From a virus: DNA of 23,466 bases. Below are positions 2,162 to 22,655 of the stretch, in pieces. Below the pieces are notes generated by a model that saw only the letters and a list, made by a program, of their open reading frames with translations, made no database searches and was not told where the DNA came from. The DNA lies in IMG/VR virus record IMGVR_UViG_3300027969_002932, positions 1 to 23,466 of that record. One strand, written 5' to 3'. The translations under genes were made by a program, and so were the position numbers. How positions within the stretch are numbered: position 1 is the first letter of the stretch; each line of letters opens with the position of its first letter.

Positions 2162-2162
2162 T

Positions 2163-6900: not shown

Positions 6901-9900
6901 CGTTTCTAATTCTATTCTGGTCAAGATTCAACGAACCTTTCATGCCTAACTGGCCAGTCAACGCCAAGAAACCTCCTGTAGTAACAGGAAGCAATCTTCC
7001 GCTGTCAACAGTGATTCCGCTGTGGTCTACTCCTAGACGACGGTCGATATATGTTCTAGTTGCGTTTTCTGTTGGTACAGTGTCAGTGGCATTGTCAGAC
7101 ATTGCACTGTCTGTGGAGAATTCAGCAATAGGAACACCACGCTTGAATCCTAATCCGCTTAGGTTACTCAACGCCAAACTGGCTGAGAATGTAACAGTAC
7201 CAGTACCTTGGTCAACTCTAAAGAATGGACCAACGGAGAAGTTACCGAATTGATCCGTGGTTACAAAGAAGCAGCGTCCTTCACCACGTTCTACAATCTG
7301 TGCATACTCGACTTCACCTGTGGTATCCAACAATGTTTCAGTGGCAATACGTACAGGTGGTCCGTAAATTTCGTTTGGATAGTTTGTATCAGCATAGCTA
7401 CCTGTACCAATTTCCAATAGGTCATGTGATGTAACACGAGTCAACGCAATACGAATTGTCAGTGTACCCTGTGAACCATCTGTCCTAGCAGCAACACCAG
7501 CAAACAGTGTTACTGATCCATAGACTGTGACAGCACTGGTTTCTAGTGCCGGAGTAAAATAAACATTGGCATATGACTCACCTGTAATGGCAGGACTGTC
7601 ATACTGTGTTACTTCGTGAACACGACCCTTCCAGCCAAACTTTGTTCCGACCAATCTAGGAACATCATTGGTTCCAACCTCAACAATGGCAAGTTTTGTG
7701 CTGCCCGCACCGCCATTGACCAAGTCAACTACAAATGTTCCACTACCATTGTCGCTGAAATCAATGACTGTGGTACTGCCCAGATACCCAACAAGTTGGA
7801 ACGTGTTGGTACCTTTGTTGTAAACAATGTACTGTATAAATGCAGTCAAGCCTGGATCACCGCCTGGCAGCGTTCCATCGGTGTCAAATCTAACAACATC
7901 CCCGTCAACAAACCCGTGACTATTTCTGGTGATGGTGTTGGTTGTATGATCAAATGTACAGGTAGCACTATTGACCACGCAGGTGCCTGTTCCGTAGTCT
8001 GCTAAACTTGTACTGTTTCTAGTAAATGTACCGCCCACTGTGGGAGACCCTACATAACCAATTGAGTTCCATGCTGTGGTCCCTACCGATAAAACCTTAT
8101 ACACATAGGTAGATACTGTTTCTCTAGGACCAACAATCAGTCTAGCACCACCAGGACTACTGGTTCTAACAGCGTACTCTTGACGAGGAGACAGCGTCAT
8201 CTCTGCCCAGTTATAGCCGTCTTTTAACAGTGTATTAGCCAGTTTGGTTGCAGTGAAATAATGACTGCCGACTCCTGCATCTGCTATTGAAATAGGGCTT
8301 CCGTTTTTGCTTAAAGAAATTTTAAACGTAGTTGTAGTATAACCCTCGTCTATGATCCAATAGGTATCATCTTGTATAAGCCCTGCTGGTAATGTGCCGC
8401 TGGTATAAAATCTCACAGCGTAACCAGGCAGCTGATTGTGAGCTGTAACAGTAACAACAGCTTCGTTGGCTACGCTAAATGTACAGGTTCTGTTTTCGTA
8501 GGTTGGAGGAAAGTAATCTGTAAACTGTAGAACACGATATAGCTGACTTGTATACAGCTCGTATAATTTCAATGCAGTACTAGGACGAACAGCAACCCCA
8601 ACAACACCACCTGTTAGAATAACTTCGGTGTTCATTCTCAGCGTGACTCGAGTACCATTTGCAATTGTTTCAGCCAGTCCATCTGTATCTGAACTTAGGT
8701 TTAGTCGATAAAGTTTTTGTCCAGTACTGTCATTTGGGAAATCACTTTCCGATACTGCAGAAATTACAGGATATCGTACCAGTCCAATTTGGCCTCCATG
8801 GTCAACTTCAACCTCGCTGAAACTTCTTGGATTGTAGTCGTAATCTGTAACATACACAATAAACCCTGCTTTGGCATTGTTATAGAGACCACCTACATTG
8901 TAGACCACAGCACCTTGTGTGAGTTCATAGTATAAGTCGACTGGTGTTGGAACTTCTAATGGATCTGAACCTTCAGCAGCCAAAGCATAAACACCGTGGG
9001 CACTAGAACCACCAATACTTCGAATCTGTCCACCAGTCAGTGAGTAATAAGAAGTATAGCAGTAGTAGGTGAACATGGATACTGCTTCAGTTAATCCACC
9101 GTTGGCTGCAATTAGACCGTAGCCCATGTCACAAATCTGTGTAAAGTCGTTGCTCAACATTGATCTGTTACCAGGCATCAGAATTTCAAATATGTTAGAG
9201 TTGTCATTGACCCATGCTACAGTGCCTGTTTGAATACTAGTCTTAGCTGTAGTTAAACTAGTTCTTGCTAATTTTTTATAGGTATCGTAGGTTCTGCCTG
9301 CAGAATCAGTGACCAAATCCGGATATGTAGAAGCTGCAATATTAGCAGCGGCAACACCAGCTGCAAGTTTCTGTGCTTCAGTTCCACCATTGGTTCTATA
9401 AGCTGTTAGGGCATTGATCACAATAGAAAACAGTGTTTCTAGAACGGCTACAACAGTACTATCACTGGGGTTGGATAGGTCGTATCTCTGAGTTGTTGTA
9501 GCACCATAGGTTGTTGCCACTGTGGTGTTGACAATAACCTGTTTAGCAGCATTTTTGACCGCAGTTAGAGCATTTTCACAAGCCTGATATTGTGTAGACA
9601 ATACTTGTAATTCTAGTGTATCACCTACTCCGTTGAAGTATCTGTAGGCAGCATCTCTAGTTTCGCTGTCTCCGCCATAGTTCAAATCATAACAGATGGC
9701 CGAAATAATATATTCAATATCACGTTGCGAGCTAGGTGAAGAAAACACCAACAGTGGATAGGTAGTTGTAATATAACCTGTTCCTAATTCCTTTAAGAAA
9801 TCACTGTTGTTTATCAACAATGCCTTGGCGTTGATCCTATTTGAAGGAGCACCTGCCGGAGTGGGCAGGCTTAGGGTAGGAGCTGCGGTTGTTCCTCTAC

Positions 9901-12900
9901 GAATAATGTTGCTGAAGTTTAATTTACTTTGAGCAACAACAGCTCTACTGGCATCGTAGAATGATGTAGGTGCAAGGGCAGCTAACGAATCATCTGCAAG
10001 ATCGTGAGCATATTCAATAGCACGTATAGTTAGGTCCAATTGATCATTGAGGACCACAGCAGCATTGGCCTGACGATAGGTCAGTCCAGCTTTTCTACTC
10101 CAATAGTTTCCGCCTTGAACAACATCATAACCTAGTCCTTCAATGATTAATCCAACGTCTCGACTACATATAGCTTCATTGTAACTAAACACTGGATAGG
10201 GCCAGGGAGTGGTTTCGTCCAAGACCAAAGTGGCAGTACTGCCACTGGTACCATAGGTAAAATCTCTAACGTAGTTAATTCTATATACAGTGTCTTCAAC
10301 AATAAAAGATGCTGGCAGTTGAGGCAAGCGTTTCAATTCGCTGACAACTAGTCTAGTGGTACTGATTTTCTGTGTAATTCTAAATTCTACGTTACCAGAA
10401 AACCCGTCAACAAACATACCACCATTAAATTGATGTTGTCCGTTGCTCTTTGAGAACACAGCACCTTCTTGAGCATATGGAGATTTAGCAAGAATTTGTC
10501 CTTCTGGGTCAAGAACCAAACCAAATCCACCATGGCCTTGTATCGTTATTGCACGAAGAATAGTAGCATCGTTCATTAAGAAAACGTCCATTAGGTCGTT
10601 ATCTAAGGGTTCGTTGAACGACGAACTTGCAGAGTCGATGATATCAACTATGACATCTGTAAGTCTTGCAATAACTCCACCATTAGGTATTACATCACCA
10701 GAACTTGCTGTGTAGGCTGCAAAGTTTACGCTGTTAACAGGAGTTGAATCACCGTATTCGTAGATTACAAAAGATGAGGTTGTGGCCACAGCAATGGTAA
10801 AGCTACGACCATTGAGATTGGTCATACCTCCCATATTGCGGAATGTCACAGTTTCGCCTGTGGACAGTCCGTGTAGACCAGTAGTTGTGATGGTACAGTT
10901 GCTGTCTCTGGTAACAGACAAAACAGTTATTGCGGCACCGCCTGCACCAGTTTCTGCTGTGTAGGCACTGTCAACAATCTGTGGCTCGCTGTAGGTTATT
11001 AGTGTACCTGTATTGGGGTTAGTATAACTAGAAGGTGAAACAGTTACATTTTTAATTACCGCCTGCGCCACAGTTTCTAATCTTCGTATAGCCGCAATGG
11101 TTTGATCTAATTGATCAGGACCAATAGCAATAGCAGGATCGCCTAGATCAGTTGCTGATCCTCGGTATTTTAACGCTGCTGAAATAGTTCTAGGAGCACT
11201 GCCGTAGCGCAGGTCAAATACCATAGCATCAATCAATAGACCAACATCTCGCTTGCATAAGTCTTGATTGTAGGTAAAACCAGTTCCAAACGGAGACACG
11301 TCTTCAACAGTATTTTTATTAATCCAAGTGATAACTTCTTCTTGTATAAATTTTTTGTTCAATGACAACAGATCTGCTGCTGATCTATAATAACCTTTGT
11401 TGTTAATAGATGCTTCTGGATAAATTGGTTCATCGGCATTGCCCAGGTAATGATAACCAAACACATCATCTCGGGCAGCATTATAATCGTTTCGAGCTGT
11501 GTTTAATCCGTCAATTATTTTATCTCTTCTAAAATACTGGAAGGCCCAAGGACTTGAGCTCATGCCTTTCTTTGGACGTATAATAGTTCTACGGAATTCA
11601 TCCCCGTTAATGGCCACGTTTTGTGGAACTCTTAATGGTAAATTTTCGTAATATATACCGGCTTCAACAAACACACACAGTTGTCTAGTATTGGCTACAT
11701 CACCGTAGCTGATACTCTCGCCAATTTTAAAAACACCGTACTTGATATCAATGTCAAATAATTCATTACCGCTGGTATCTAATTCTCCGCTGTGTGCTAG
11801 AATCTGAGCCAGTGCTCCGGAAGTCTCTCCATATAGGTATAGTCCTTCTCTGATATCTCGGCCACGTCTTGCAGCGGCACTATCTGTAGTTACATCTCCA
11901 GTATAGTCTGTTCGTTGGTGTCCTGTGTAAATTGCAAATCTAGGAAGATTAACAACAAGTTCTGGAAACTCAGTAAAGCCTTCACCACCATCTGTAATGG
12001 TAATTCCAACTATTGTTCCACTAGATACATCAGCAAAACCAAATCCTGCTGTAGCACCTGTGTCAGTCACAGTGGGGCTTACTCGAACTGACACTAGACT
12101 GAAACCACTACCCGGTGATTCAATAATAGCTGTACTAACTCGATATTTCACTAGGAACAGTGCATTAGTACCATAGGTACTTCCTGGCACTGTGCTAGGC
12201 CAATACACATAACCATTAGCATTGGTCTCTGGCAATCCAGTTCCAGTTCCGCCTAGACCTTCATCAAATCTACCACCTGTTACAATTCTATAGGTTAAAA
12301 TTGGACCATTAGGTGTTCCGGGTTGACTGTTAACTGTTAAAATTTGAACAGTGGCCGCATCAGCATCGGACCCTCCTGTTGGTTTGATCTTTAATATTTC
12401 ACCTGCTTGGAAATTAAAACCACTATCGATTAACTGTACGCTGTCAACGGTCAAGGTAACACGACCTGCAAAACCTGTGCCAGAGTCTGGAGATACTTGT
12501 ATTTCAGTTAGATTAGCATTGCTTCTAACTCCTGATTCCGGATTGGTCCAGGTTAAAACTTTCTTGTAAGGCCCAATTTCTGGAGGGCTTGCTTTGATAA
12601 TCTCTTCTGCTCTTTTCAACGCAGCTTCTAGAGTTCTGTAGGCAAAGGCCAGGGCACGACCCTGTGTGCTAGAGCCAACACCAATACGTTCGTCACTGCC
12701 CGCTGTAGAAACATATAAATTAATACGGCTAGCATAACCTGCATTGTCTACGTAATTTTTAGTAGCAGCAACAAGACCGCCATAGGTTACATCGTCTTCT
12801 GGTCTAGGATCTCTAGAAAGAACTAATGGACCAGTCATAGTACCAAATGCAGAATTTACAATACCAACCGCCGGATCTATGGCATTTACGCCAGCTAATG

Positions 12901-13363
12901 CGATCTTGGTATCTGTATAGGCTTTATTGGATGCTTCGTCAGAAGTTATAGGAGTAGCTAGTTCTTGTATTCTAAACTGTGTACCACCCGATTGACCTTT
13001 TAAATTTCCACCTAATCTTGGACTTGTATCTGCAGAAATAGTGCTTCGAGTATTGGTAATTGTGATTTCATTTTCTTGGTCAAATACCAAACTTATACCA
13101 GTACCAGCAACTAATTGTTTAAACACCAACCCAGATTCGTTGGCATTAACTGCAACTAAAGAATTTTCAAATCCTTGATAGTAGGCATCGCCCTCGCCAC
13201 CAACTGGGGCGTCTTCTAGAGTAGAAAATTTTAGTCTACTGCCTAGGCCTAATGCTCCATAGAGTTCTCTGAAGTTGTCATTTACTTTTCTAAATGAGTC
13301 GCGAATACTGTCGCCTGTACCGTCATTACCGACAATACCTATATCAATCGTTTTTCTTGCCAT
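3923..13363 (-). CDS. Giant phage fibre/baseplate protein (3146 aa) with gp10-like N-terminus and beta-helix region
   Basis: Residues 1-45 (IDIGIVGNDGTGDSIRDSF, then VNDNFRELYGALGLG) match the gp10-like docking module. Residues ~560-600 (VFVEAGIYYENLPLRVPQN, then GDEFRRTIIRP) look like a pectin-lyase-type beta-helix entry. A C-x-RDVGLIID-type motif occurs near residues 700, 1065 and 1210, the last degenerate. A TxxHGLxxGxxVxF module recurs near 820, 1640 and 1815. Residues ~1400-1465 (ICDMGYGLIAANGGLTE and TGGQIRSIGGSSAHG) form a block I recognise from T4-like marine phages. Residues ~2480-2745 hold seven ~40-residue repeats and ~2760-3010 two and a half ~115-residue repeats. The last ~130 residues (from ADLAERYATDQEYPVGTVVV) form a compact C-terminal domain seen at the end of phage fibres, perhaps self-cleaving or chaperone-like. 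The start has AGGA 10 nt upstream and a CTAAATA late element. No enzymatic residues could be assigned. Confidence 0.85.
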   Translation of the reverse strand: MARKTIDIGIVGNDGTGDSIRDSFRKVNDNFRELYGALGLGSRLKFSTLEDAPVGGEGDAYYQGFENSLVAVNANESGLVFKQLVAGTGISLVFDQENEITITNTRSTISADTSPRLGGNLKGQSGGTQFRIQELATPITSDEASNKAYTDTKIALAGVNAIDPAVGIVNSAFGTMTGPLVLSRDPRPEDDVTYGGLVAATKNYVDNAGYASRINLYVSTAGSDERIGVGSSTQGRALAFAYRTLEAALKRAEEIIKASPPEIGPYKKVLTWTNPESGVRSNANLTEIQVSPDSGTGFAGRVTLTVDSVQLIDSGFNFQAGEILKIKPTGGSDADAATVQILTVNSQPGTPNGPILTYRIVTGGRFDEGLGGTGTGLPETNANGYVYWPSTVPGSTYGTNALFLVKYRVSTAIIESPGSGFSLVSVRVSPTVTDTGATAGFGFADVSSGTIVGITITDGGEGFTEFPELVVNLPRFAIYTGHQRTDYTGDVTTDSAAARRGRDIREGLYLYGETSGALAQILAHSGELDTSGNELFDIDIKYGVFKIGESISYGDVANTRQLCVFVEAGIYYENLPLRVPQNVAINGDEFRRTIIRPKKGMSSSPWAFQYFRRDKIIDGLNTARNDYNAARDDVFGYHYLGNADEPIYPEASINNKGYYRSAADLLSLNKKFIQEEVITWINKNTVEDVSPFGTGFTYNQDLCKRDVGLLIDAMVFDLRYGSAPRTISAALKYRGSATDLGDPAIAIGPDQLDQTIAAIRRLETVAQAVIKNVTVSPSSYTNPNTGTLITYSEPQIVDSAYTAETGAGGAAITVLSVTRDSNCTITTTGLHGLSTGETVTFRNMGGMTNLNGRSFTIAVATTSSFVIYEYGDSTPVNSVNFAAYTASSGDVIPNGGVIARLTDVIVDIIDSASSSFNEPLDNDLMDVFLMNDATILRAITIQGHGGFGLVLDPEGQILAKSPYAQEGAVFSKSNGQHQFNGGMFVDGFSGNVEFRITQKISTTRLVVSELKRLPQLPASFIVEDTVYRINYVRDFTYGTSGSTATLVLDETTPWPYPVFSYNEAICSRDVGLIIEGLGYDVVQGGNYWSRKAGLTYRQANAAVVLNDQLDLTIRAIEYAHDLADDSLAALAPTSFYDASRAVVAQSKLNFSNIIRRGTTAAPTLSLPTPAGAPSNRINAKALLINNSDFLKELGTGYITTTYPLLVFSSPSSQRDIEYIISAICYDLNYGGDSETRDAAYRYFNGVGDTLELQVLSTQYQACENALTAVKNAAKQVIVNTTVATTYGATTTQRYDLSNPSDSTVVAVLETLFSIVINALTAYRTNGGTEAQKLAAGVAAANIAASTYPDLVTDSAGRTYDTYKKLARTSLTTAKTSIQTGTVAWVNDNSNIFEILMPGNRSMLSNDFTQICDMGYGLIAANGGLTEAVSMFTYYCYTSYYSLTGGQIRSIGGSSAHGVYALAAEGSDPLEVPTPVDLYYELTQGAVVYNVGGLYNNAKAGFIVYVTDYDYNPRSFSEVEVDHGGQIGLVRYPVISAVSESDFPNDSTGQKLYRLNLSSDTDGLAETIANGTRVTLRMNTEVILTGGVVGVAVRPSTALKLYELYTSQLYRVLQFTDYFPPTYENRTCTFSVANEAVVTVTAHNQLPGYAVRFYTSGTLPAGLIQDDTYWIIDEGYTTTTFKISLSKNGSPISIADAGVGSHYFTATKLANTLLKDGYNWAEMTLSPRQEYAVRTSSPGGARLIVGPRETVSTYVYKVLSVGTTAWNSIGYVGSPTVGGTFTRNSTSLADYGTGTCVVNSATCTFDHTTNTITRNSHGFVDGDVVRFDTDGTLPGGDPGLTAFIQYIVYNKGTNTFQLVGYLGSTTVIDFSDNGSGTFVVDLVNGGAGSTKLAIVEVGTNDVPRLVGTKFGWKGRVHEVTQYDSPAITGESYANVYFTPALETSAVTVYGSVTLFAGVAARTDGSQGTLTIRIALTRVTSHDLLEIGTGSYADTNYPNEIYGPPVRIATETLLDTTGEVEYAQIVERGEGRCFFVTTDQFGNFSVGPFFRVDQGTGTVTFSASLALSNLSGLGFKRGVPIAEFSTDSAMSDNATDTVPTENATRTYIDRRLGVDHSGITVDSGRLLPVTTGGFLALTGQLGMKGSLNLDQNRIRNVADPVDPQDAVNRRSISFDAIIANSFPGQQVSAGMAIAFTGTGNEGRAVTISGDLSVPGDNAITTGLDSTQNAWNIYIKDDVIDNANINSTAAIVQSKLSMVAASTRANATSITQADRGLVSFNSAEFTLTSGWAELKTNGIAVGKLAQIATETVLGRTISGTGDVSAVAFSDVVNTGLGIKKSQYSSAGAFLRRKTDASTFSADGNFETILAKDFYSGINFTDTDANGKLVIRDPSGDIGSRDIYALRSFYVGTSANVNKKLVDTALTATGGQINIYGFNGTLGVSIGDGSLTTDKVSSYRNNSHRFRLYDDSAFAPIQVSSVISDTFTTGGATTVGTITGNLSMSGVSNLTLGTGTIDATTGTLKSTTLTTGAVGTAGTLTGAWSLNTTSKLIGQTGSEIDFSTGTIKSRTFTTGANTTTGNMTGNWTMTSGSKIDFTSGTLQSTTLTTGATATAGVITGQWSTAVGSTINLGTTTFTTRDITTGGEAITGTITGDWSMVGLSNLTWGTGYLDMRTGTFYTDTLTTGAAGTAGVITGNWSMATTSNLTLGTGAIDARTGTLYTDTLHSGDTATAGLITGAWTLASGSTLVASTIASQANSATITATNANTANTIVLRDASGNFSAATISASLSGNASTASAWATGRTITLTGDVTGVSAAWTGSGNISIATTISADATVLGTDTTGQYASTVGVSGNGLSCTTPNGTDGTAYTITSNATNLNTVSTLVFRDSSGNFSAGTITAALSGNASTATTAAAWTTGRTITLTGDVTGTSALFDGSGNLSFATTIAANSVELGTDTTGSYVQQGTTSGNGLSGSVNSEAGTFTVTSNATNLNTANTIVFRDSSGNFSAGVMTGTATAARYADLAERYATDQEYPVGTVVVFGGEKEITVSNIKMDTRVAGVISANPAYMMNCEAGSDATHPYVALAGRVPCRVVGKIKKGDMLVSSGIAGIAVATDNPRMGSMIGKALEDYDSDHIGTIEIVVGRA
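4318..5080 (-). repeat. Two and a half ~115-residue repeats in the giant fibre gene
   Basis: The unit begins with (V/F)RD(A/S)SGNFSA and continues with LSGNAST, GRTITLTGDVTG, GSGN(I/L)S(I/F)ATTI and GTDTTG. Copies start near 5048, 4704 and 4360, spaced about 345 nt. The third is cut short by the C-terminal domain. The copies differ at many codons, so this is an old protein repeat, not a recent DNA duplication. Confidence 0.75.
5131..5917 (-). repeat. Seven ~40-residue repeats in the giant fibre gene
   Basis: The unit is of the form TTGAxGTAGxITGxWSMxxx followed by SNLTLGTGxIDxxTGTLxxxT. Seven copies can be followed in tandem; copies 3, 4 and 7 are shortened. The pattern suggests a regular beta shaft, each unit adding one or a few turns. 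Confidence 0.75.
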
Positions 13364-13435: not shown

Positions 13436-13723
13436 ATGTTCCTAATGACAGAATTTCAAGAAAGTCAATATGTTAGACTCAGTAAGCTAGGGGAAGAACA
13501 CACGTATACTCGTAATAAAACTCTGGCAGTGTTTCGGTGCGACAATTGTGATGAGACATTCAAAAGAGATCTTAAACACGTAGATCGTAAAAGACTAAGC
13601 AACAACTATTTTCATTGTTGTAGTAATTGTGATCACAAAAGATTTGCTCAACGCAAAGGTGTTGAGCGTAAAAAGATATGGGACTTGCCTGCTAGCAGTA
13701 CTCTACCTGTTGGTAGATACTAG
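13436..13723 (+). CDS. Small zinc-ribbon phage protein (95 aa), function unknown
   Basis: Two Cys pairs (C35-x2-C38 in FRCDNCDETF and C62-x2-C65 in CCSNCDHKRFA) form a likely zinc ribbon, followed by a basic stretch (RKGVERKKIW) and the tail DLPASSTLPVGRY. I recall similar short proteins with SNNYFHxCSNCDxKRFAQ in T4-like marine phages, some annotated as HNH-endonuclease-like, but no catalytic HNH triad is evident. It is one of only two plus-strand genes here. There is no clear Shine-Dalgarno before Met1 (13436) or Met4 (13445), so the exact start is uncertain. Its stop overlaps the convergent iscA stop in one CTAG. DNA or RNA binding is the most likely activity, by inference. Confidence 0.7.
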   Translation: MFLMTEFQESQYVRLSKLGEEHTYTRNKTLAVFRCDNCDETFKRDLKHVDRKRLSNNYFHCCSNCDHKRFAQRKGVERKKIWDLPASSTLPVGRY

Positions 13724-14046
13724 ACTCTAAAACTTTCACCGCAACCGCATCGATCACGTTCGTTTGGATTGATAAAATCAAATCCTTCATTGAGCCCATT
13801 GCGAACCCAATCCATTGTTAGTCCGTTTAAGTATACCAGGCTTTTTGCATCAACTAGTACTACAAAGTCTTTTTGAGCAAAATTAGTTACTCCCGATTCA
13901 GCTGTGTATTGGTCTACATATTCGATGGTATATGCTAGACCACTACAGCCAGTAGTTCTTACACCTATGCGGATGCCAACGCCCTTGCCGCGGCGCTGTA
14001 AATTTTGTTTGATCTTTTTATACGCTGTGTCGGTTACGGTAATCAT
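13720..14046 (-). CDS. iscA: A-type Fe-S cluster assembly protein, IscA/HesB family
   Basis: At 108 residues it has full family length and the three conserved cysteines: C34 in RTTGCSGLAY and C100/C102 in RCGCGESFRV, preceded by NEGFDFINPN. A-type proteins bind Fe or Fe-S clusters through these cysteines and pass clusters to client enzymes. The start MITVTD aligns with bacterial IscA (MSITLSD), so the ATG at 14046 is preferred although it lies inside iscU (29-nt overlap). It is the last gene of the sod-iscU-iscA operon. It could equally be an ErpA-type carrier; Cys spacing alone does not separate the two. It is an apparently intact auxiliary gene in a phage setting. Confidence 0.92.
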   Translation of the reverse strand: MITVTDTAYKKIKQNLQRRGKGVGIRIGVRTTGCSGLAYTIEYVDQYTAESGVTNFAQKDFVVLVDAKSLVYLNGLTMDWVRNGLNEGFDFINPNERDRCGCGESFRV

Positions 14047-14404
14047 TTACGGCTGCTTTGATGGCATCTTCAGCCAATATACTACAATGTATTTTAACTG
14101 GCGGTAGGGCTAGTTCTTCGGCAATTTCGGAGTTTTTAATTGATCCGGCTTCGTCGAGTGTTTTTCCTTTGACCCATTCTGTAATAAGGCTCGAGCTCGC
14201 AATAGCCGATCCGCAGCCATACGTTTTAAATTTTGCATCTGTAATAATACCTGTATCATGATCTACCTTTATCTGTAAACGCATAACATCACCGCAGGCA
14301 GGAGCACCAACCATGCCAGTACCAATGTTATCATCATCTTTTCCAAACGATCCGACATTGCGGGGATTTTCATAATGGTCAATAACTTTGTCACTGTAGG
14401 CCAT
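14018..14404 (-). CDS. iscU: Fe-S cluster scaffold protein IscU (NifU N-terminal family)
   Basis: The 128-residue protein retains all scaffold residues: C37 and D39 (GAPACGDVM), C64 (TYGCGSAIASSS) and C107 (PPVKIHCSIL). It also has the L100-P-P-V-K104 motif that in proteobacterial IscU is the binding site for the HscA chaperone. IscU assembles 2Fe-2S clusters with sulfur from IscS; no iscS, hscA, hscB or fdx is in this window, so host partners would be needed. The start codon lies 14 nt inside the end of sod, and the end overlaps iscA by 29 nt, so the three genes are translated as a coupled set. Conservation of every ligand and of the HscA motif argues for an active protein. Confidence 0.95.
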   Translation of the reverse strand: MAYSDKVIDHYENPRNVGSFGKDDDNIGTGMVGAPACGDVMRLQIKVDHDTGIITDAKFKTYGCGSAIASSSLITEWVKGKTLDEAGSIKNSEIAEELALPPVKIHCSILAEDAIKAAVNDYRNRHSV

Positions 14405-14936
14405 TTATTTTCTCCCAATTAATAATCTTCCACTGGTTTTCTAGATACTTTTGTTTGTCAGCTTGATAGTCCAATGCCCAAGCATGTTCCCACCAATCAA
14501 TCAGCAGCACAATATCTTCTTTGATTTCGTGATTAATAATGGTTTTAATACTGCCATTACGTGCTAGGTACACCCAACCACTGCCCTGTATGCCCATAGC
14601 CACCTTAAGAAATTCTTCTTTAAACGCTTCAAACGTTTTAAATTTGCTTTCTATTAGTTCTAATACAGCACCGTCGGGCTTGTTAGAGCCAGAAGGACTT
14701 TGGTATTGATCAAATAAAATATCATGTAAAAACGCCCCTGCTTCATTGAAGTCTCTGTCACCTTCTCCTTTGTTGTAACGATCCACATAGGCTTTATATA
14801 GTGTTCCAAAGTGATAGTCTAGAGTTTCTTCACTTATAACAGGATTTAGATCTGTGCGAGAGTAAGGCAACGTTAATTGAACTAACTTGTCTTTTTTACC
14901 TTCAACAATGAAGTTTTGAATGAATTTAAATGCCAT
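14391..14936 (-). CDS. sod: Fe/Mn-family superoxide dismutase (181 aa)
   Basis: The family is identified by the metal ligands H42 (LDYHFGTLY), H71 (AGAFLHDILFD), D147 and H151 (LLIDWWEHAWALDYQ), the gateway Tyr (Y50), and GSGWVYL. It converts superoxide to peroxide and oxygen in the cytoplasm. The ATG at 14936 (MAFKFIQNF) is chosen over the upstream TTG-type start at 15011 because the extra 25 residues overlap the divergent promoter and match nothing in the family. It diverges from standard enzymes: L46-Y47 replace the usual His-His pair after the first ligand, G67 occupies the position of the FeSOD Gln, and N135-H136 lies about where MnSOD has Asn-Gln. Metal preference is therefore open. It is the first gene of the sod-iscU-iscA operon. 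Confidence 0.88.
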   Translation of the reverse strand: MAFKFIQNFIVEGKKDKLVQLTLPYSRTDLNPVISEETLDYHFGTLYKAYVDRYNKGEGDRDFNEAGAFLHDILFDQYQSPSGSNKPDGAVLELIESKFKTFEAFKEEFLKVAMGIQGSGWVYLARNGSIKTIINHEIKEDIVLLIDWWEHAWALDYQADKQKYLENQWKIINWEKINGLQ

Positions 14937-14941
14937 ACGTG

Positions 14942-14957
14942 TATTTACCGCTAAATA
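14942..14957. promoter_or_regulatory. Palindromic divergent late-promoter pair TATTTA-CCGC-TAAATA
   Basis: The 6-bp arms are perfectly inverted around CCGC. Plus strand: CGCTAAATA, predicted start near 14963, then AAGGAG (14965-14970) and the ATG at 14977. Minus strand: CGGTAAATA, predicted start exactly at the A of the sod ATG (14936). The two elements are 4 bp apart, so one polymerase would exclude the other. Confidence 0.55.
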
Positions 14958-14976
14958 AATTCCTAAGGAGATTAAT

Positions 14977-15288
14977 ATGCTAGGATTAATTAAAAAACTA
15001 TTTGGAGCCAAAGATGCTGCACCTGCACCTGTAGAAGCTGCACCCGTTCCATATAAAGTTGAGGCAGCACCTGCCCCGGCAGTTGAGGCAGTAGTTGTTG
15101 TTCCAGAGGCAGTTGTTCCAGCGGCTGTGGTTGAACAAGCACCTGCTAAAAAGCCTGCACCTAAAAAGCAACAGTTCGCTAAAAAGCCTGCTGCTCCAAA
15201 GACTGCAACGCCAAAAGCACCACCTAAGCCAAAAGCACCACCTAAGCCAAAAGCACCACCTAAGCCAAAAGCAAAGCCGGCTGCTTAA
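14977..15288 (+). CDS. Ala/Pro/Lys-rich low-complexity protein (103 aa)
   Basis: The protein has a short amphipathic start (MLGLIKKLFGAKD), an Ala/Pro/Val/Glu-rich middle (residues ~14-55), and a very basic tail of KKPAPKK and KAPPKP units (residues ~58-103). It resembles the C-terminal tail of histone H1 or other flexible nucleic-acid-binding tails in composition only; no fold can be assigned. A strong AAGGAG site 6 nt before the ATG and a CTAAATA late element just upstream support a real, late-expressed gene. Its end overlaps the convergent uvsE end by 29 nt. Possible roles are DNA packing, a virion-internal protein, or membrane association through the N-terminal helix; all are inference. 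Confidence 0.7.
   Translation: MLGLIKKLFGAKDAAPAPVEAAPVPYKVEAAPAPAVEAVVVVPEAVVPAAVVEQAPAKKPAPKKQQFAKKPAAPKTATPKAPPKPKAPPKPKAPPKPKAKPAA
15211..15273 (+). repeat. 18-nt tandem repeat, 3.5 copies, encoding KAPPKP units
   Basis: The unit CCAAAAGCACCACCTAAG is repeated exactly three times, followed by half a copy. It encodes PKAPPK in the Ala/Pro/Lys-rich protein. Read on the other strand it supplies the last codons and the TAG stop of uvsE. Exact identity of the copies suggests recent slippage-type expansion. Confidence 0.9.
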
Positions 15289-16306
15289 GACTTTGTTCAT
15301 AAAGTGCAAAGCTGGCTAGATTCTTAGCCTTGCTTTCGCACATTATGTCAAATTGGTCTCGAAAGCTCAAAGCCCATTCATTCACTGCTGTATTCCAGTA
15401 GAAGTTTGAGTGAGCTCTGAGCTTTGATTTTTTATGCCCGGTTTCTAAGAGGGACGAAAGATCGGGGCGGATGTGTCGGGGATGCTCAACAATACAGTCT
15501 TCCCGTGAAACACTGTAATGTATAACAGGTCGCACACCACGCCAACTATCAATAATCCGCTTAACACGGTCGTCAGTCGGTTCAATATATTCTCCTGTGT
15601 GTATCCAATGATGGTGTATGTCTAGCACCAATGCGCAGGTATTTACCAACTCAAGGCTTGAGTCAATACCCCACGAGATTTCGTCGTTTTCGATTGTGAT
15701 ACAGTTGCGAGCTTCGGGGCTCAACCTCTGCATCACACGCTTAATTCCATCAGGACCTTGCCGGCCACTGATATGTACATTGATTTTAAAGTCTTGAAAG
15801 GTTTTGCCATAGCCCATCCAGCGAGCCATGTCAGTGTGATACTCAAATTCTTCAATGCTTCTGCTTACAATATCGTCACTAGCAGATGCCAGCACAGTAA
15901 ACTGACCAGGGTGAAAAGACAACCTAACACCCCTCTCGCGAGCCAAATCTCCCACGGCTCGAAATCCTCTTTCACAAGTGTCACGGACAGAGGGAATCCG
16001 CCAAAACCTGCTCCAAGTTGGCTCAGTGTACACAGGCAGAATATCGCTGCCGAGTCGTACCATTCTAAGATTTTCATCAAGGGTTCCTACTTTCTCAACC
16101 AACTTGCGAACCGCTTCAATATTACCTACCATTAGGTCATAGAGCTTTTGTTCGGCTACTTCTGTTGTTTGTCTATTTAACCAGGCAACAGTGGTACTGC
16201 CAGTATTATACTGTTTGCAGTTGTCTTTTTGTTTAATGCCGTTGATTTGACTAGGTCCGTCAATCCATTTGCAGGCAAAGCCTATGCGTCTGTGTGTAGT
16301 GTTCAT
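15260..16306 (-). CDS. uvsE: UV-damage endonuclease, UvsE/UVDE family (348 aa)
   Basis: The start RRIGFACKWIDGPSQINGIK and the body are typical of the UVDE TIM-barrel repair nuclease, which nicks 5' of cyclobutane dimers and 6-4 photoproducts. Visible metal-site motifs are RLSFHPGQF, NVHISGRQG, ITIENDE, VLDIHHHW, IHYSVSRED and RAHSNFYWN. The length is normal for the family. A host-like promoter (16313-16341) predicts transcription from the A of the ATG, so early, leaderless expression is likely. There is no good Shine-Dalgarno. The last residues (KQPALLLA) are the antisense reading of the convergent gene's tandem repeat, so the C-terminal tail may differ between relatives. Its likely job is repair of sunlight damage to the incoming phage genome. 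Confidence 0.93.
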   Translation of the reverse strand: MNTTHRRIGFACKWIDGPSQINGIKQKDNCKQYNTGSTTVAWLNRQTTEVAEQKLYDLMVGNIEAVRKLVEKVGTLDENLRMVRLGSDILPVYTEPTWSRFWRIPSVRDTCERGFRAVGDLARERGVRLSFHPGQFTVLASASDDIVSRSIEEFEYHTDMARWMGYGKTFQDFKINVHISGRQGPDGIKRVMQRLSPEARNCITIENDEISWGIDSSLELVNTCALVLDIHHHWIHTGEYIEPTDDRVKRIIDSWRGVRPVIHYSVSREDCIVEHPRHIRPDLSSLLETGHKKSKLRAHSNFYWNTAVNEWALSFRDQFDIMCESKAKNLASFALYEQSLKQPALLLA

Positions 16307-16312
16307 ACATAC

Positions 16313-16341
16313 AGTATAACATCTTCACCGCCAGTTGTCAA
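16313..16341 (-). promoter_or_regulatory. Early sigma70-type promoter for uvsE (TTGACA-17-TATACT)
   Basis: The -35 is TTGACA (16336-16341) and the -10 is TATACT (16313-16318), with a 17-nt spacer. The -35 overlaps the last codons of the glycosyltransferase gene. The expected start, 7 nt past the -10, is 16306, the A of the uvsE ATG. It shares TTGACAACT and GATGTTATA with the promoter at 22627-22655. Confidence 0.75.
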
Positions 16342-17143
16342 CTACAAAAGGATCCGGAACAACATCGGGATTTGGGTCACCGTGAAACACAGCAATAGAA
16401 CACTGGGGATTAACCTGTAGATTGTGCGCTACGGTTTTAAACCCGCTCTTGCCAGTTCTCACAACCAGTTCTTCACGACTACGGATTTCCCATTTATAAC
16501 TCTGTATCCATTCTATAGGCCAAAATCTAATACGATCCTTGGCCACATGCCAAGTCCAATCTTGATCTCCGTGCATCCTTTGAGCGGTTGCGGGATTGGC
16601 AACAAATCTATCCCAGATATCTGTTTGCGTTCCATGTATCCAACTCATTACACTGCTGTTAAGCATACGCCAACTAGGATGAAACTTTCGATTGAAGTCT
16701 TGTATACCCATAAAATTATTTCCCAGATTAAACACAATTTTATCTAGGGTTCCGCAGATTACAACATCGAGATCGAGGTATAGTATTCTTCCTGCAATAT
16801 TTAAATTGGGATCAAACATGTGAACCTTATGCCACCAAGGTTTAGTATATCCGGCACTTCTTTGATAGATTGTTCTTACACCTGAAATTGGGTTTGGATC
16901 ATCGGTAAGGCAGGCAAATTCATAAGGAACAGTCATATGTCTACTGACCATGTTCCTTAATCTTTCTACATATTCTGAGCCGTACTTGTTACCAAATTTA
17001 ACACAGAGAACAGTTATCTTGTTCGAATTATGATCTACTGGATGGACAACAGTCTGTTCTAAAGGAGGAAGGTATCCGTTTTGTTTATAAAAACGAAACT
17101 GCTCTTTAGTTAGACTGTCTCTTACTTCTTTTGACAATTTCAT
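16325..17143 (-). CDS. Putative GT-A-fold glycosyltransferase (272 aa)
   Basis: A Rossmann-like strand (ITVLCVKFG, residues 43-51) is followed by [10 protein letters not shown] (74-83), WWHKVHMF (103-110) and the DxD motif D124-L-D126 in [14 protein letters not shown]. Then come MLNSSVMSW (160-168), HGDQDW (191-196) and a C-terminal VFHGDPNPD. This order fits a nucleotide-sugar transferase of the GT-A type like those in many marine phages; DxD would bind the metal and sugar-nucleotide. Residues 1-40 are an extra N-terminal piece. The gene begins 38 nt inside the end of kdsA, so it is read from the same transcript. Acceptor (host surface glycan, phage protein or phage DNA) and donor are unknown. 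Confidence 0.75.
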
Positions 17144-17948
17144 CGATAGCTACCATTTCTTCTAATATGTCTTTGAGATTGTCTAACTGTATCATGTTAG
17201 GACCATCGCTAGGAGCATTGTCCGGATCTTCGTGTGTTTCCATAAACACAGCAGCAACACAGCCTGTGGCTATAGCAGCTCTCGCCAGGTAGGGTACCAT
17301 AGTCCTATCTCCCCCAGAGACTGTTCCAAGTCCTCCAGGTTGCTGAACGCTATGTGTGGCATCAAAGACCACTGGATACCCGGTGCGAGCCATAATGGGT
17401 AGGCTACGCATGTCAACAACAAGATTATTATATCCATGAGTGTATCCCCTTTCGCACAACATGATGTGTTCGTTGCCTGTGCTGGCAATCTTCTCCGCAA
17501 CATTTTTCATATCGTGGGGAGCAAGGAACTGACCTTTTTTTACATTGATTGCTTTACCAGTCTGCCCAGCGGCCAATAACAGGTCTGTCTGACGACACAA
17601 GAAAGCGGGAATTTGTAAAATATCTACACCAGCATCGCTGACTTCCTGTGCTTGCCAGGTTTCGTGAATGTCGGTGAGAATCGGAACCCCAAGTTTGTGC
17701 TTGACTGTGTTGAGTATTTCTAATCCTTCTTTGATACCTACACCTCGTTTAGTGCCCACACTAGAACGATTGGCTTTATCAAAGCTGCTTTTGTAAACGA
17801 ATTTAATTCCTAGCTCACTACTAATTTGTTTAATTCGTTCAGCTGTATCGAGAGCATGTTGTTGACTCTCAATTTGACAGGGTCCGGCAATCAACACAAA
17901 AGGTTGATCGTTGCCTACAGTAATATTATGAATGTTAAATCTACGCAT
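17106..17948 (-). CDS. kdsA: 3-deoxy-8-phosphooctulonate (Kdo-8-phosphate) synthase, metal-dependent class
   Basis: It condenses phosphoenolpyruvate with arabinose-5-phosphate to Kdo-8-phosphate, the precursor of the Kdo in lipopolysaccharide. The 280-residue sequence is complete: AGPCQIES (21-28), [11 protein letters not shown] (53-63), [12 protein letters not shown] (113-124), VKKGQFLAP (136-144), [10 protein letters not shown] (172-181), [11 protein letters not shown] (196-206), METHEDP (236-242) and SDG (247-249). C24, H199, E237 and D248 match the four metal ligands of the Aquifex-type (class II) enzyme; E. coli KdsA has Asn in place of the Cys. No kdsB, kdsC or kdsD is visible, so host enzymes would complete the path. 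GTAAATA lies 5 nt before the ATG; no clear Shine-Dalgarno is present. It overlaps the downstream glycosyltransferase. Confidence 0.94.
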
Positions 17949-18737: not shown

Positions 18738-19385
18738 TTAATTATACATAGTATTTAATTCTTTTGCAACCTCTGTATAGAATTTATCTAGCTCAAAAAC
18801 TTCTACATTGGGCAACCGCCAATCTTCGGGACATTGCCAAGTATCGTGGTTGAAAATTTTAAAATTCTTATCTGAGTAGTGTAAGAATACTTTTCTCATT
18901 TGATAGATCCAATAGCTAGGATCAACGGCTGATTTGTTTTCTGGAAGATAGTTTATACTGCCTTTATATACATTGTTGACCAAAGTGTTCTTTCCGTAAA
19001 GATCGAATCCGATTATCAATATATTTTTGAAATTCAATTCGGCTGCTAGTAACACAGCATACGGCCCACTACCCCAATGTTCGGCCTGATCAGGTTTGAG
19101 AACTCCCTCATAGGGCAACGCAGGTAAATTTTTTACTTTTTCTTTTTGTAAAACTTTATAGAAGTCATTGTAATATCTAGGCCTGGTATAGATATGGGAT
19201 ACTTTTTTGTTGTTGACTGCTTCTCGAACCATTCTATGATCGCAGCAGACAAGATGATTAACTCTCATGTCTCGATGAATGGCGTTACAGCCTATTAGCG
19301 TGACTTTGTCCCAATAGGATCTAATATCTAAAGATATTCTACTTTCGCCGTTGCCAATGACAATGGCAGCATTGTCACAGTGCAT
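18738..19385 (-). CDS. Rossmann-type DUF115/GT42-like putative glycosyltransferase (215 aa)
   Basis: The protein opens with a nucleotide-binding-like AAIVIGNGESR (6-16), then LIGCNAIHRD (30-39) and LVCCDHRMV (45-53). It then has HWGSGPYAVLLAAELNFKNI (103-122) leading to LIIGFDLYG (123-131). This order (GNGxS, a CN step, SGxYA, IxGxDxY) is that of GT42 sialyltransferases of the Campylobacter CstI/II type and of the related DUF115 domain found in Maf flagellin glycosylation proteins. The match is by motif from memory, so the assignment is tentative. Its ATG follows the stop of the second fibre-like gene by 1 nt (TAATATG), making it the third gene of a virion-fibre operon. That context suggests modification of a phage fibre or of a surface glycan. 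Confidence 0.6.
   Translation of the reverse strand: MHCDNAAIVIGNGESRISLDIRSYWDKVTLIGCNAIHRDMRVNHLVCCDHRMVREAVNNKKVSHIYTRPRYYNDFYKVLQKEKVKNLPALPYEGVLKPDQAEHWGSGPYAVLLAAELNFKNILIIGFDLYGKNTLVNNVYKGSINYLPENKSAVDPSYWIYQMRKVFLHYSDKNFKIFNHDTWQCPEDWRLPNVEVFELDKFYTEVAKELNTMYN
18741..18769 (-). promoter_or_regulatory. Sigma70-like promoter for queD (TTGCAA-17-TATAAT)
   Basis: The -10 is a perfect TATAAT (18741-18746) and the -35 is TTGCAA (18764-18769), with a 17-nt spacer. It lies within the last codons of the upstream gene. The predicted start is near 18734. It lacks the TTGACAACT and GATGTTATA extensions of the other two early promoters, so support is weaker. Confidence 0.5.
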
Positions 19386-19386
19386 A

Positions 19387-20247
19387 TTAACCGCTTTGTT
19401 TTATTTCACCGAAGGGCATCCATGTTCCGGGACTTCCGGCACGTACACATACCCATCCAACACACCGGCCCACTTCTGGTTCTGTATTCCATACTATAGA
19501 TCCTCGGTCGTAGGTCCCATTATCAGGAACAGCATTTAGATATTGATGTAGTCTTTCGTTGAATTTGATTGCACCTGCTACATGAAGATCTGCACGACTG
19601 TCTAGAGTTTTAACTCCCACAGACAATTTGCCATGCACAGTGACCTGTATAGGACCAAACGCTTTGTTACCCAATTTAATGTTGCCACCACCTTCTATGG
19701 TAATTCTGGCTGTGTTGTCAGTGACAATGTCTAGGTCGTTGCTGGCAAAGGTTCCAATTTTTCCTGTAGATCCATTTGCTGTACCTATTAAAATCTCAAC
19801 TCCGTCTTCAGCAATGCTCAAAGCAGCATTTGGTTGTTCTGTTCCTAGACCTAGTCTATCGGTTGAAGAGTTGTAATAGAGATATTGATTAACACTTAGA
19901 TCTCCATCTACAATTAATCCTCGTAGTCTACCTAGTTCTCGTAGATTGCTTTTAACAACAGTAGCACCTAGCTGTGTTTCTGACAATACCGGGTTGTTGT
20001 TGATTCTAAATTCTTGATCTTTTAATAGTTCTAAAGACTCGCTGCTGATAAATTTATCGCCTTTGGCAAAAATAAATTGTCTTGTACGTCCTTGGCCCTT
20101 CCACATCAGGCCTTTGCCGTAGTTATTTCCATCTGGGTCAGCATTGAATTCTACAACACGATCATCTGAAACTGTTGTATTTTCTTGAGTTATTTCTCTA
20201 AGAGCCTGCGATAGCAGTTCTGCGGCTTGTGTTAATTTATCTGACAT
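19387..20247 (-). CDS. Fibre-like virion protein, paralogue 2 (286 aa)
   Basis: It aligns with the 378-residue gene just upstream over about 230 residues, from GKGLMWKGQGRTRQFIF through the identical block KSNLRELGRLRGLIVDG, RLGLGTEQPNAALS, IGTFAS, TDNTARI and DLHVAGAIKF to the C-terminal GWVCVRAGSPGTWMPFG. The last motif is common at the ends of marine phage fibres and structural proteins. The N-terminus is a short amphipathic helix (KLTQAAELLSQALREI) without the gp10-like module. It probably forms trimers as a fibre, collar or head decoration; the location is unknown. It sits 1 nt after its paralogue and 1 nt before the GT42-like gene (TAATATG at both joints). Confidence 0.75.
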   Translation of the reverse strand: MSDKLTQAAELLSQALREITQENTTVSDDRVVEFNADPDGNNYGKGLMWKGQGRTRQFIFAKGDKFISSESLELLKDQEFRINNNPVLSETQLGATVVKSNLRELGRLRGLIVDGDLSVNQYLYYNSSTDRLGLGTEQPNAALSIAEDGVEILIGTANGSTGKIGTFASNDLDIVTDNTARITIEGGGNIKLGNKAFGPIQVTVHGKLSVGVKTLDSRADLHVAGAIKFNERLHQYLNAVPDNGTYDRGSIVWNTEPEVGRCVGWVCVRAGSPGTWMPFGEIKQSG

Positions 20248-20248
20248 A

Positions 20249-21385
20249 TTATCCTGCTTGCGTTATTGCGCCAAACGGCATCCAGTCGCCGGGACTACCA
20301 GCACGTACACACACCCAACCTACATTGCCTCCTGCTCTAGGAGCAGTGTTCCAAACTATGTCACCAGTTTTATATGATCCTGCATCAGGAGCAGCATCTG
20401 CATAAATGTGTAGGTGGCCGTGGAATCGAACAGGGCCGTTAACATGAAGATCAACATCTGGGTCAGGAGTATTTACTCTGATGGCCAGCTTGCCGTGTAT
20501 AGAAACTTGAACTGGTCCTTCGCTGGTATTACCTAAAAGAATGTTGCCTGCTGATCCTATGCTGATTCTAGCTGTGTTGTCTGTGATGATATCAAAAGGT
20601 GTGCTGGCAAATGTACCAATCATTCCACGAGTTTGATCTCTAGTACCTACTAACACTTCAACACCATCTTCACAGACACTTAAAGCCGCATTTGGTTGAT
20701 CTATTCCTAGCCCTAGTCTATTGGTATTGTTGTCATAATAGATGTACTGACCAAAACTGGCACTCCCATCAACAATCAAACCTCTCAATCTACCTAGCTC
20801 TCGTAGATTGCTCTTTACTACACCTTGCCCTAGAGCAGTGGCCGACAATACTGAATCACCACTTATTCTATATTCTCTATCTTTGATTAATTCAAAATTC
20901 TCAGTGCTGGTAAACTTGTCTGGATTGATCGTAAAAATCAACTGTTTAGTAGGGCCTTGCCCTTTTAATAAAATGCCTTTGCCTACCAATGTTTCGCCGC
21001 CACTGACTGTGATCTCTAATGGAGCACTTTGCCCTAGCTTTAAATCAGTTTTTAATTCTTTAACTTCCAAAACATCTACGATCATAGACTTTGCTGTAAT
21101 AGAATTTTCTACAGCAAGATTGCCTTTGACCTGCGCTATAGAAATAGTTCCAAGTTCTACTCCAGAATCTTTTACAGTAATCTGTTGTTTGGTAGCTTCA
21201 TCCTTAATGCCTGTGCTGGCAAAGTTAATGATAGTGCCACCGTTGAGATGATCTCCTGTAAGACTGCGTTTAGCAATCTTTGTATGTAGATGTTCAAGGT
21301 CTACAGGGCCGTTGGCCTGCTGTACCAGTGTTTGTAAACTAGTGCCTAAATAGGCGATTGCTTTGTCGAGGTTGTTTTCTGCCAT
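20249..21385 (-). CDS. Fibre-like virion protein, paralogue 1 (378 aa)
   Basis: Residues 1-25 form a short helix (DKAIAYLGTSLQTLVQQ). Residues ~30-130 are a beta-rich segment missing from the shorter paralogue (GIKDEATKQQITVKDSG, then VENSITAKSMIVDVLEV). From ~135 on the two proteins match: GKGILLKGQGPTKQLIF, KSNLRELGRLRGLIVDG, RLGLGIDQPNAALS, IGTFAS, TDNTARI and GWVCVRAGSPGDWMPFG. This is a tandem duplication with later gain or loss of the N-terminal segment. The start codon lies in the 3' arm of a 13-bp hairpin whose loop contains a late promoter, and no Shine-Dalgarno is visible, so late-only translation is suggested. Confidence 0.75.
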   Translation of the reverse strand: MAENNLDKAIAYLGTSLQTLVQQANGPVDLEHLHTKIAKRSLTGDHLNGGTIINFASTGIKDEATKQQITVKDSGVELGTISIAQVKGNLAVENSITAKSMIVDVLEVKELKTDLKLGQSAPLEITVSGGETLVGKGILLKGQGPTKQLIFTINPDKFTSTENFELIKDREYRISGDSVLSATALGQGVVKSNLRELGRLRGLIVDGSASFGQYIYYDNNTNRLGLGIDQPNAALSVCEDGVEVLVGTRDQTRGMIGTFASTPFDIITDNTARISIGSAGNILLGNTSEGPVQVSIHGKLAIRVNTPDPDVDLHVNGPVRFHGHLHIYADAAPDAGSYKTGDIVWNTAPRAGGNVGWVCVRAGSPGDWMPFGAITQAG

Positions 21386-21414
21386 AGTCTAGTATTTATT
21401 CGACTATGGCAGAA
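21377..21414 (-). promoter_or_regulatory. 13-bp hairpin with late promoter in its loop, start codon in the 3' arm
   Basis: On the minus strand TTCTGCCATAGTC (21414-21402) and GACTATGGCAGAA (21389-21377) are perfect inverted repeats around a 12-nt loop. The loop contains AATAAATA (21400-21393), close to the T4 late core. The ATG of the 378-residue gene is within the 3' arm. Read-through RNA from the upstream early unit would fold and hide the start codon. RNA begun at the late promoter (predicted near 21387) lacks the 5' arm. T4 uses this layout for genes e, soc and 49. Confidence 0.7.
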
Positions 21415-21425
21415 GGGTCTACATC

Positions 21426-22595
21426 TTATTGTACCTTGAGCAGTACAGTTTCCTCGTTGATACGACCGTTCATACGAGCGTCTGTAGCACTGATATCGTC
21501 TAAGAACTTACGCAGAGCTACCTTGCCCGCAGCCTTAAACTCTTTGAGCTTTTCTTCAGGCTTGCGAATAGTCTTTTGAATAGACTTGCTTTCATTAAAG
21601 CCCGTAATTGTAGTACCTTTAACGCCCAATTCTTTGAATTCTTCTGCAACATATTTGCCCAACTTGCGGGTTTTGCTGTTGTAGATCCAAAGTTCTTGGG
21701 CTCCGATGATGTCTTCAGGATTGATACTGACCAATTTTAATGGCTCGTTGGTCTTCATGTATTTGAGTTTGCCAACAACTTTGCTCTTGTCTGTGGGCTT
21801 TTTGGCACGTGGCTTGCGATTAACCTTGGCTTCTTGTCCTAGCATGTCGCAGGCACTGACAACTTCTTGATAAAAAGCAGTGATCTTTTTCAATTGTGCT
21901 TTAGTCAAATGACTGTAGCCCTCTTTGAGCTGTTCATCTTTGGTGGTTGCGGCCTCAACAAGCTCTGCAAGATCTCGCTCGTAAAAGGTTTTAATGATTC
22001 GAGTGTGAGCTGCCTTGGCTTCTTTGGCCTTTAACACATTGAGAACTTTGAAAGCCTTGGGATCAAAAGACTCTGGATCTGTTTGAAATGCGTCGATAGC
22101 GGATTCAATTTCTTCAGTCATTTTATAACTGGCTTCACGAACACGCTCTTGAATGCTAGGAGTATAGACATCCTTTTTAACTTCAACAACTTCTTCGCTG
22201 TCGTCTTTGTCGTCTTTGCCTTGTTCAATTACTTTAACGATCTCTGCACGAAGCCAAACGGCTGTATCTCGTCCGTCGTTAAAGTCTGCACGTATTGTAG
22301 GCATACCTTTGATTAAACAGGCTGCGATTGACCCCATGGTCATTCCACAACGATTGTCTTTGGTTTTCTTAAATGCTTGAATGTCTTCTTTGGCGCAGCC
22401 TTGACGACCCATCCAATCAATGACCTTGGGTTTAAGTTCTTTAGCTGAACTTTCCAAACGATACCAAGCCATACTAGAGTGAAAATGACGCAAGAATTGA
22501 TTGGTATCCCAAGTCTCGTGGTCGTCCCATTTTGGACTTAGGTCGCGGCCTTTTTTAGCACGAACGTCTGCTAAGTGTTTTGCTGTAGTCGCCAT
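21426..22595 (-). CDS. Conserved-type phage protein of unknown function (389 aa)
   Basis: The ATG at 22595 (MATTAKHLADVRAKKGRDL) is chosen over a TTG at 22655 because AGGAG lies 9 nt upstream and the 20 extra codons are a perfect promoter, not protein. The sequence is charged and largely helical: an N-terminal part with WDDHETWDTNQFLRHFHSS and WMGRQGCAKEDIQAFKK, an acidic DDKDDSEEVVEV stretch (~128-140), a helical middle, a basic RKPRAKKPTDKSK linker (~257-270), and a C-terminal part with IIGAQELWIYNSKTRKLG. There is no signal peptide or membrane segment. I recall similar proteins in T4-like marine phages but no function. An early promoter suggests a takeover or DNA-metabolism role rather than a virion part; that is inference. 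Confidence 0.8.
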   Translation of the reverse strand: MATTAKHLADVRAKKGRDLSPKWDDHETWDTNQFLRHFHSSMAWYRLESSAKELKPKVIDWMGRQGCAKEDIQAFKKTKDNRCGMTMGSIAACLIKGMPTIRADFNDGRDTAVWLRAEIVKVIEQGKDDKDDSEEVVEVKKDVYTPSIQERVREASYKMTEEIESAIDAFQTDPESFDPKAFKVLNVLKAKEAKAAHTRIIKTFYERDLAELVEAATTKDEQLKEGYSHLTKAQLKKITAFYQEVVSACDMLGQEAKVNRKPRAKKPTDKSKVVGKLKYMKTNEPLKLVSINPEDIIGAQELWIYNSKTRKLGKYVAEEFKELGVKGTTITGFNESKSIQKTIRKPEEKLKEFKAAGKVALRKFLDDISATDARMNGRINEETVLLKVQ

Positions 22596-22626
22596 AGTAT
22601 CACTCCTGTGTGTTAACAATATGTAT

Positions 22627-22655
22627 ATTATAACATCGTTTTGACGAGTTGTCAA
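22627..22655 (-). promoter_or_regulatory. Perfect sigma70 consensus promoter (TTGACA-17-TATAAT)
   Basis: The -35 TTGACA (22650-22655) and -10 TATAAT (22627-22632) are both six of six, with an ideal 17-nt spacer. The predicted start is about 22620, giving a 25-nt leader with AGGAG before the 389-residue gene. The TGA inside the -35 is the stop codon of the upstream 64-residue gene. TTGAC and GTCAA (22641-22655) form a small inverted repeat over the -35. Confidence 0.85.

Follow-up and report, generated by a model that had tools for sequence, protein, structure and literature searches.

In phage T4, the genes e, soc, 49 and I-TevI carry translational locks that act on long early RNA: a hairpin hides the translation start, and a late promoter lying between the hairpin arms or beside them yields RNA that lacks the 5' arm (PMC3014915). 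The logic of the lock is proven for gene e, whose long RNA is translated 100-fold less (PMC3014915). Leaderless phage mRNAs are another known class, and a remark in the paper on phage AR9 describes phage transcripts as often leaderless (PMC5312081).

Here we describe a locus at which features of both kinds appear to occur together. The DNA analyzed, hereafter the window, is the 23,466-nt stretch at positions 1 to 23,466 of IMG/VR record IMGVR_UViG_3300027969_002932, and the group to which we compare it consists of environmental viruses of bacteria that are distantly related to phage T4. We consider it likely that the locus is an early/late boundary with a translation lock like that of T4 e, wherein a hairpin buries the AUG of a fibre-like gene in read-through early RNA and late RNA from a promoter in the hairpin loop escapes.

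A hairpin over the fibre start codon encloses the window's only ATAAATA

On the minus strand, positions 21414-21377 read TTCTGCCATAGTC-GAATAAATACTA-GACTATGGCAGAA, an inverted repeat of 13 perfect pairs with a 12-nt loop. The hairpin and its surroundings comprise the following features.

22627 to 22655, minus: TTGACA-17-TATAAT and an extended -10, taken to be an early sigma-70 promoter, ahead of the phrog_11903 gene
21426 to 22604, minus: upstream gene, an ORF of 392 codons matching phrog_11903 (E = 2e-72)
21402 to 21414, minus: non-coding 5' arm of the hairpin, TTCTGCCATAGTC, the perfect complement of the 3' arm
21393 to 21399, minus: ATAAATA within the loop, presumed to be the late promoter
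21386 to 21388, minus: ACT, where the late RNA is predicted to begin from T4 late start spacing
21377 to 21389, minus: 3' arm of the hairpin, GACTATGGCAGAA, with the fibre start codon (21385-21383), from the repeat search and RNA folding
20249 to 21385, minus: fibre-like gene 1, 378 aa, with weak matches to tail fibre/structural PHROGs over its C-terminal part
19387 to 20247, minus: fibre-like gene 2, 286 aa, directly downstream of gene 1 and matching the same PHROGs
18738 to 19385, minus: third gene of the run, 215 aa, matching phrog_30607

A preliminary description of this DNA had reported a perfect 13-bp inverted repeat around a late-promoter motif, with the ATG of a 378-residue gene in the 3' arm, and the sequence bears this out. 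The repeat is the only perfect one of at least 10 bp in the window (loop of up to 30 nt), and 20 dinucleotide shuffles gave 0.1 repeats of at least 11 bp per window and none of at least 12 bp. ATAAATA likewise occurs once on the two strands of the window, at 21399-21393 within the loop. When a 101-nt RNA was folded, the hairpin was the predicted minimum-energy structure (z = -5.25), with 0/200 shuffles as stable. The AUG that opens the 378-codon fibre ORF falls within the 13 pairs of the predicted long-RNA fold, and in RNA starting at ACUAUG it is predicted to stay open.

The same description had placed a perfect early promoter at 22627. That promoter is indeed a 12/12 match to consensus, and its type, TTGACA-17-TATAAT, recurs before the upstream gene in seven further loci. 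The stop codon of the upstream gene lies 40 nt ahead of the fibre ATG, and no minus-strand terminator-like site was found between the promoter (22655-22627) and the fibre gene. Because no terminator separates the phrog_11903 gene from the fibre genes, early transcription could read through into them. Downstream, the proposed operon of three genes holds as two fibre-like genes followed by a third; the GT42-like identity suggested for the third found no support, as that gene has no Pfam or PDB sequence match.

Elsewhere on the minus strand, a second near-consensus sigma-70 promoter (11/12, extended -10) stands at 16341-16313, just before a gene for a UvdE-like UV endonuclease. The surrounding region (13720-17948) is a run of host-like metabolic genes, with Fe-S_biosyn, NifU_N and UvdE endonuclease domains by Pfam and ORFs that by eye resemble superoxide dismutase and KDO-8-phosphate synthase. 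Three ORFs at positions 2-13363 are very large, one reaching 3146 aa, and at least two of them have a common N-terminal module of the type GNDGTGDSIRDSFRKVNDNFRELY.

A model of the locus as an early/late boundary

In the model that we favor, a host-type polymerase would start early at the sigma-70 promoter, transcribe the phrog_11903 gene and be able to continue into the fibre genes. On the resulting long RNA the 13-bp hairpin would form and hide the fibre AUG, so that ribosomes could not initiate. Later, a polymerase of T4-type late specificity would start at the ATAAATA in the loop, giving an RNA that begins about 3 nt before the AUG, lacks the 5' arm, forms no hairpin and would be translated as a near-leaderless mRNA.

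Folding predictions for the homologous leaders described below are in line with this model. The cost of opening the start region, computed for the stretch -3 to +12 around the AUG, is predicted to be 14.5-22.3 kcal/mol in the long RNA of 11 hairpin leaders, 0.2-1.5 kcal/mol in the late RNA of hairpin members and 0.1-10.6 kcal/mol in the long RNA of members that carry a terminator.

Relatives carry a hairpin, a terminator or neither

Homologous loci were collected from IMG/VR in a first scan (26 loci) and in an alignment-based scan (126 relatives, 80 kept), and the leader set comprised 45 distinct leaders and the window. ATAAATA lies exactly 5 or 7 nt ahead of the fibre ATG in 46/46 leaders, a count that is partly non-blind in that the script favored ATGs with ATAAATA at most 20 nt away. 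The chosen ATG is consistent with the aligned N-termini in the members that were aligned; for L350, the aligned ATG was taken instead of an upstream in-frame ATG. In all hairpin members the loop contains ATAAATA, at a spacing of 7 nt from the ATG, and nearly all homologues with the 7-nt spacing keep the ACT that precedes the ATG.

Eleven leaders in two clades, seven in the window clade and four in the MTDQ clade, have a strong stem across the AUG and no terminator. Against shuffled upstream DNA, the enclosing stem of each of them stands at 1/301. In another 25 leaders ATAAATA is closely preceded by an intrinsic terminator, a device found in 0/11 hairpin leaders, and none of the 25 has a stem as strong, although L296/297 and L345/347 show weaker, different stems over the AUG besides their terminator. 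Neither device is seen in L281 and L295, where the neighboring gene is divergently transcribed, or in L284, which has no same-strand gene within 220 nt. With a same-strand neighbor, the L328 lineage and L351 still have neither a terminator nor a strong stem, and protection is thus not universal. In the tree the two hairpin clades fall apart, each at 100/100, and their fibre proteins are about half identical.

This comparison indicates that in two clades the hairpin stands where most relatives carry a terminator, an association without a meaningful p-value because the independent evolutionary switches are few. Terminators occur at 0/42 other near-ATG late sites of the group's contigs, which marks the fibre locus as a special boundary. 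A DNA-level search of cultured phages for the locus found nothing, and among these phages the fibre protein has no more than partial matches.

The non-coding arm is under selection

Members of the window clade share 95% identity over the non-coding 5' arm. Identity is 49% for the 8 nt ahead of the arm, 38-41% for the bases flanking ATAAATA and 57-58% for third codon positions of both neighboring genes. Between the clades, GCA gives way to ACA as the second codon, and a C to U change in the 5' arm re-forms the pair, a compensatory replacement of C-G by U-A; the innermost pair goes from C-G to U-G, a wobble, and L290 has extra outer G-C pairs. Sliding the register lowers the paired cells from 99% to 22-45%. 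As the preliminary description had anticipated, the stem is kept in relatives, in two clades and with one compensatory change, but covariation is thin and 8/11 core pairs are invariant. We regard the covariation as real but limited, given a coding 3' arm and pairs that for the most part are invariant.

ATAAATA next to start codons points to leaderless late mRNAs

Motif statistics came from the group's contigs, 1.01 Mb in total. Of the 180 ATAAATA copies there, 116 have an ATG-started ORF no more than 45 nt away (11-37% for permuted motifs), in line with the core of T4-type late transcription, TATAAATA/NATAAATA, standing before late genes. As many as 56/180 copies are only 3-8 nt ahead of an ORF that opens with ATG, the distances peaking at 4, 5 and 7; permuted motifs reach 0.4-5% at this distance, except TAAATAA, which is able to overlap ATAAATA. 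The corresponding counts are 0/28 in the T4 late region examined (minimum 12 nt), 0/8 in the 50 kb examined of cyanophage Syn1, 0/33 in PA5oct and 1/8 in 121Q. On the large contigs an SD-like core precedes 0/41 genes of the near-ATG class, 27/40 of the class with longer leaders and 242/552 of all ATG genes. For one homologous structural gene, the PA5oct copy has AGGAG in a leader of 19 nt, and IMG/VR loci of another contig set have the arrangement ATAAATA-N4-ACT-ATG. In contigs of relatives such as L353-L369 and L377-L381, many genes without a Shine-Dalgarno have ATAAATA 4, 5 or 7 nt ahead of their ATG.

In T4, late RNA begins a few nucleotides past the motif. By this rule RNAs of the near-ATG class would carry leaders of 0-3 nt, and these genes point to a class of leaderless late mRNAs in the phage group. 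At the fibre gene, where no Shine-Dalgarno precedes the AUG, ATAAATA would be a late promoter whose RNA has a predicted leader of about 3 nt. The preliminary description had proposed a late promoter in the loop and an AUG hidden in early RNA and free in late RNA; the homologues speak for this arrangement, and what falls away is a leader like that of T4 e. The literature that we searched holds no description of leaderless T4-type late mRNAs.

T4-type homologues of gp43 (1e-64) and gp44 (4e-22) are present in the group. The late sigma factor gp55 was undetected by HMM in group contigs of up to 163 kb, which may be incomplete, and a phrog_234 search run without a positive control found no gp55. 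A T4 gp45 query gave no phmmer match, and searches of the contigs for the T4 portal and Gp23 families, again without a positive control, found neither.

The hairpin is not part of the general near-ATG pattern. Among distinct ATAAATA-N4-ACT-ATG sites in IMG/VR, 9/155 have an enclosing stem at p<0.05, which is the chance level, and in the group's genomes the count is 7/51 sites, some of which are fibre homologues. Hairpins in the MPRLSLYRP gene family were also rejected (2/48, not significant). Separately, a hairpin much like that of the fibre gene, CATAGTC..ATAAATA..GACTATG, holds the start codon of an unrelated gene, a TnpB-like ORF (MLKAYKYRIYPS...) in L395 near 1896 and in L405 (minus strand). 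Small late genes starting MSTESTIL, MSNENTIL or MPNKNYYL (L030, L377, L362; G014 45099, G021 17153, G017 7248) have short stems across the AUG, TGGGCA/TGTCCA and GGGTATAC/GTATGCCC, with only the last below p = 0.01.

Other explanations of the hairpin

The hairpin lies at the end of the upstream gene, where relatives carry terminators, and could for that reason be taken for an intrinsic terminator itself. We give this hardly any credence, since no U-tract follows the stem (the next bases are AAACAACC) and two intrinsic-terminator scans did not flag it. The shared position of hairpin and terminator stems, along with the high stability of the hairpin, would also suit a structure whose main task is to mark or shield the early mRNA's 3' end, as a processing site or exonuclease barrier, with burial of the AUG as a side effect. 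A 3' barrier need not pair with the start codon or enclose a late promoter, yet the non-coding arm tracks the change in the second codon, and the four leaders with weaker, different stems over the same AUG have these while keeping their terminator. We consider such a role unlikely. A near-perfect palindrome around a promoter is also what an operator usually looks like, which would have a dimeric protein bind both arms as DNA and repress the late promoter between them. The arm sequence, however, is dictated by the coding region and differs among lineages, the spacing between the arms is variable, and the stem tolerates G-U pairs, which RNA allows and a DNA palindrome has no need of, making an operator quite improbable.

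A different possibility is that promoter position alone regulates the gene: the fibre AUG would work only at a 5' end, on a leaderless mRNA, and the hairpin would be a minor reinforcement. Near-ATG late promoters without a Shine-Dalgarno are common in the group and mostly have no hairpin. Against this, the strong selection on the 5' arm and the presence of terminators at this locus, when the 42 other near-ATG sites have none, imply that a missing Shine-Dalgarno is insufficient here, and we think regulation by position alone rather unlikely. Weighing on the translation lock itself are the possible redundancy of the hairpin, given that an internal AUG lacking a Shine-Dalgarno may be weak to begin with, the small number of independent clades, the single compensatory event, the undetected gp55, and the L328 lineage and L351 with neither device. 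We are evenly divided over a wider reading, in which the group places many late promoters against the AUG, the resulting leaderless late mRNAs have AUGs that work mainly at the 5' end and so separate early from late RNA, and the fibre hairpin, exchanged with a terminator in evolution, seals the remaining leak.

Comparison with known systems

If the translation lock is as we propose, a textbook T4 trick extends, on directly comparative evidence, to a lineage of uncultured phages, and two devices, a terminator and a start-codon hairpin, serve one early/late boundary in different relatives. The near-ATG sites further predict that leaderless messages are numerous among the late mRNAs of these phages. 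If so, T4-type late control would gain a layer at translation, with consequences for gene calling in phages of this kind.

The T4-like cyanophages have the same promoter core, NATAAATA, before presumed late genes, and the portion of their description considered here mentions no start-codon hairpin (PMC2984593); in the 50 kb of Syn1 examined the near-ATG arrangement is also lacking. Like leaderless phage mRNAs, the late RNAs predicted here have a 5'-terminal or near-terminal AUG and no Shine-Dalgarno. Unlike leaderless phage mRNAs in general, they are apparently tied as a class to T4-type late promoters, and the hairpin clades add a stem for which the long RNA alone has both arms. The closest likeness is to T4 e, soc, 49 and I-TevI, with a long-RNA hairpin over the translation start and a late promoter whose RNA would lack the 5' arm (PMC3014915). 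The late promoters of T4 e, however, lie upstream of a ribosome binding site, whereas the fibre gene has no Shine-Dalgarno to hide, and its lock would thus act on an AUG suited to a 5' end. The gene under control also differs, a fibre here and a lysozyme, a capsid protein and a nuclease in T4, and relatives here have a terminator in place of the hairpin. From its sequence features, the fibre hairpin thus appears to work like T4 e-type control without being an exact member of that class, as its late RNA would lack a leader with a ribosome binding site.
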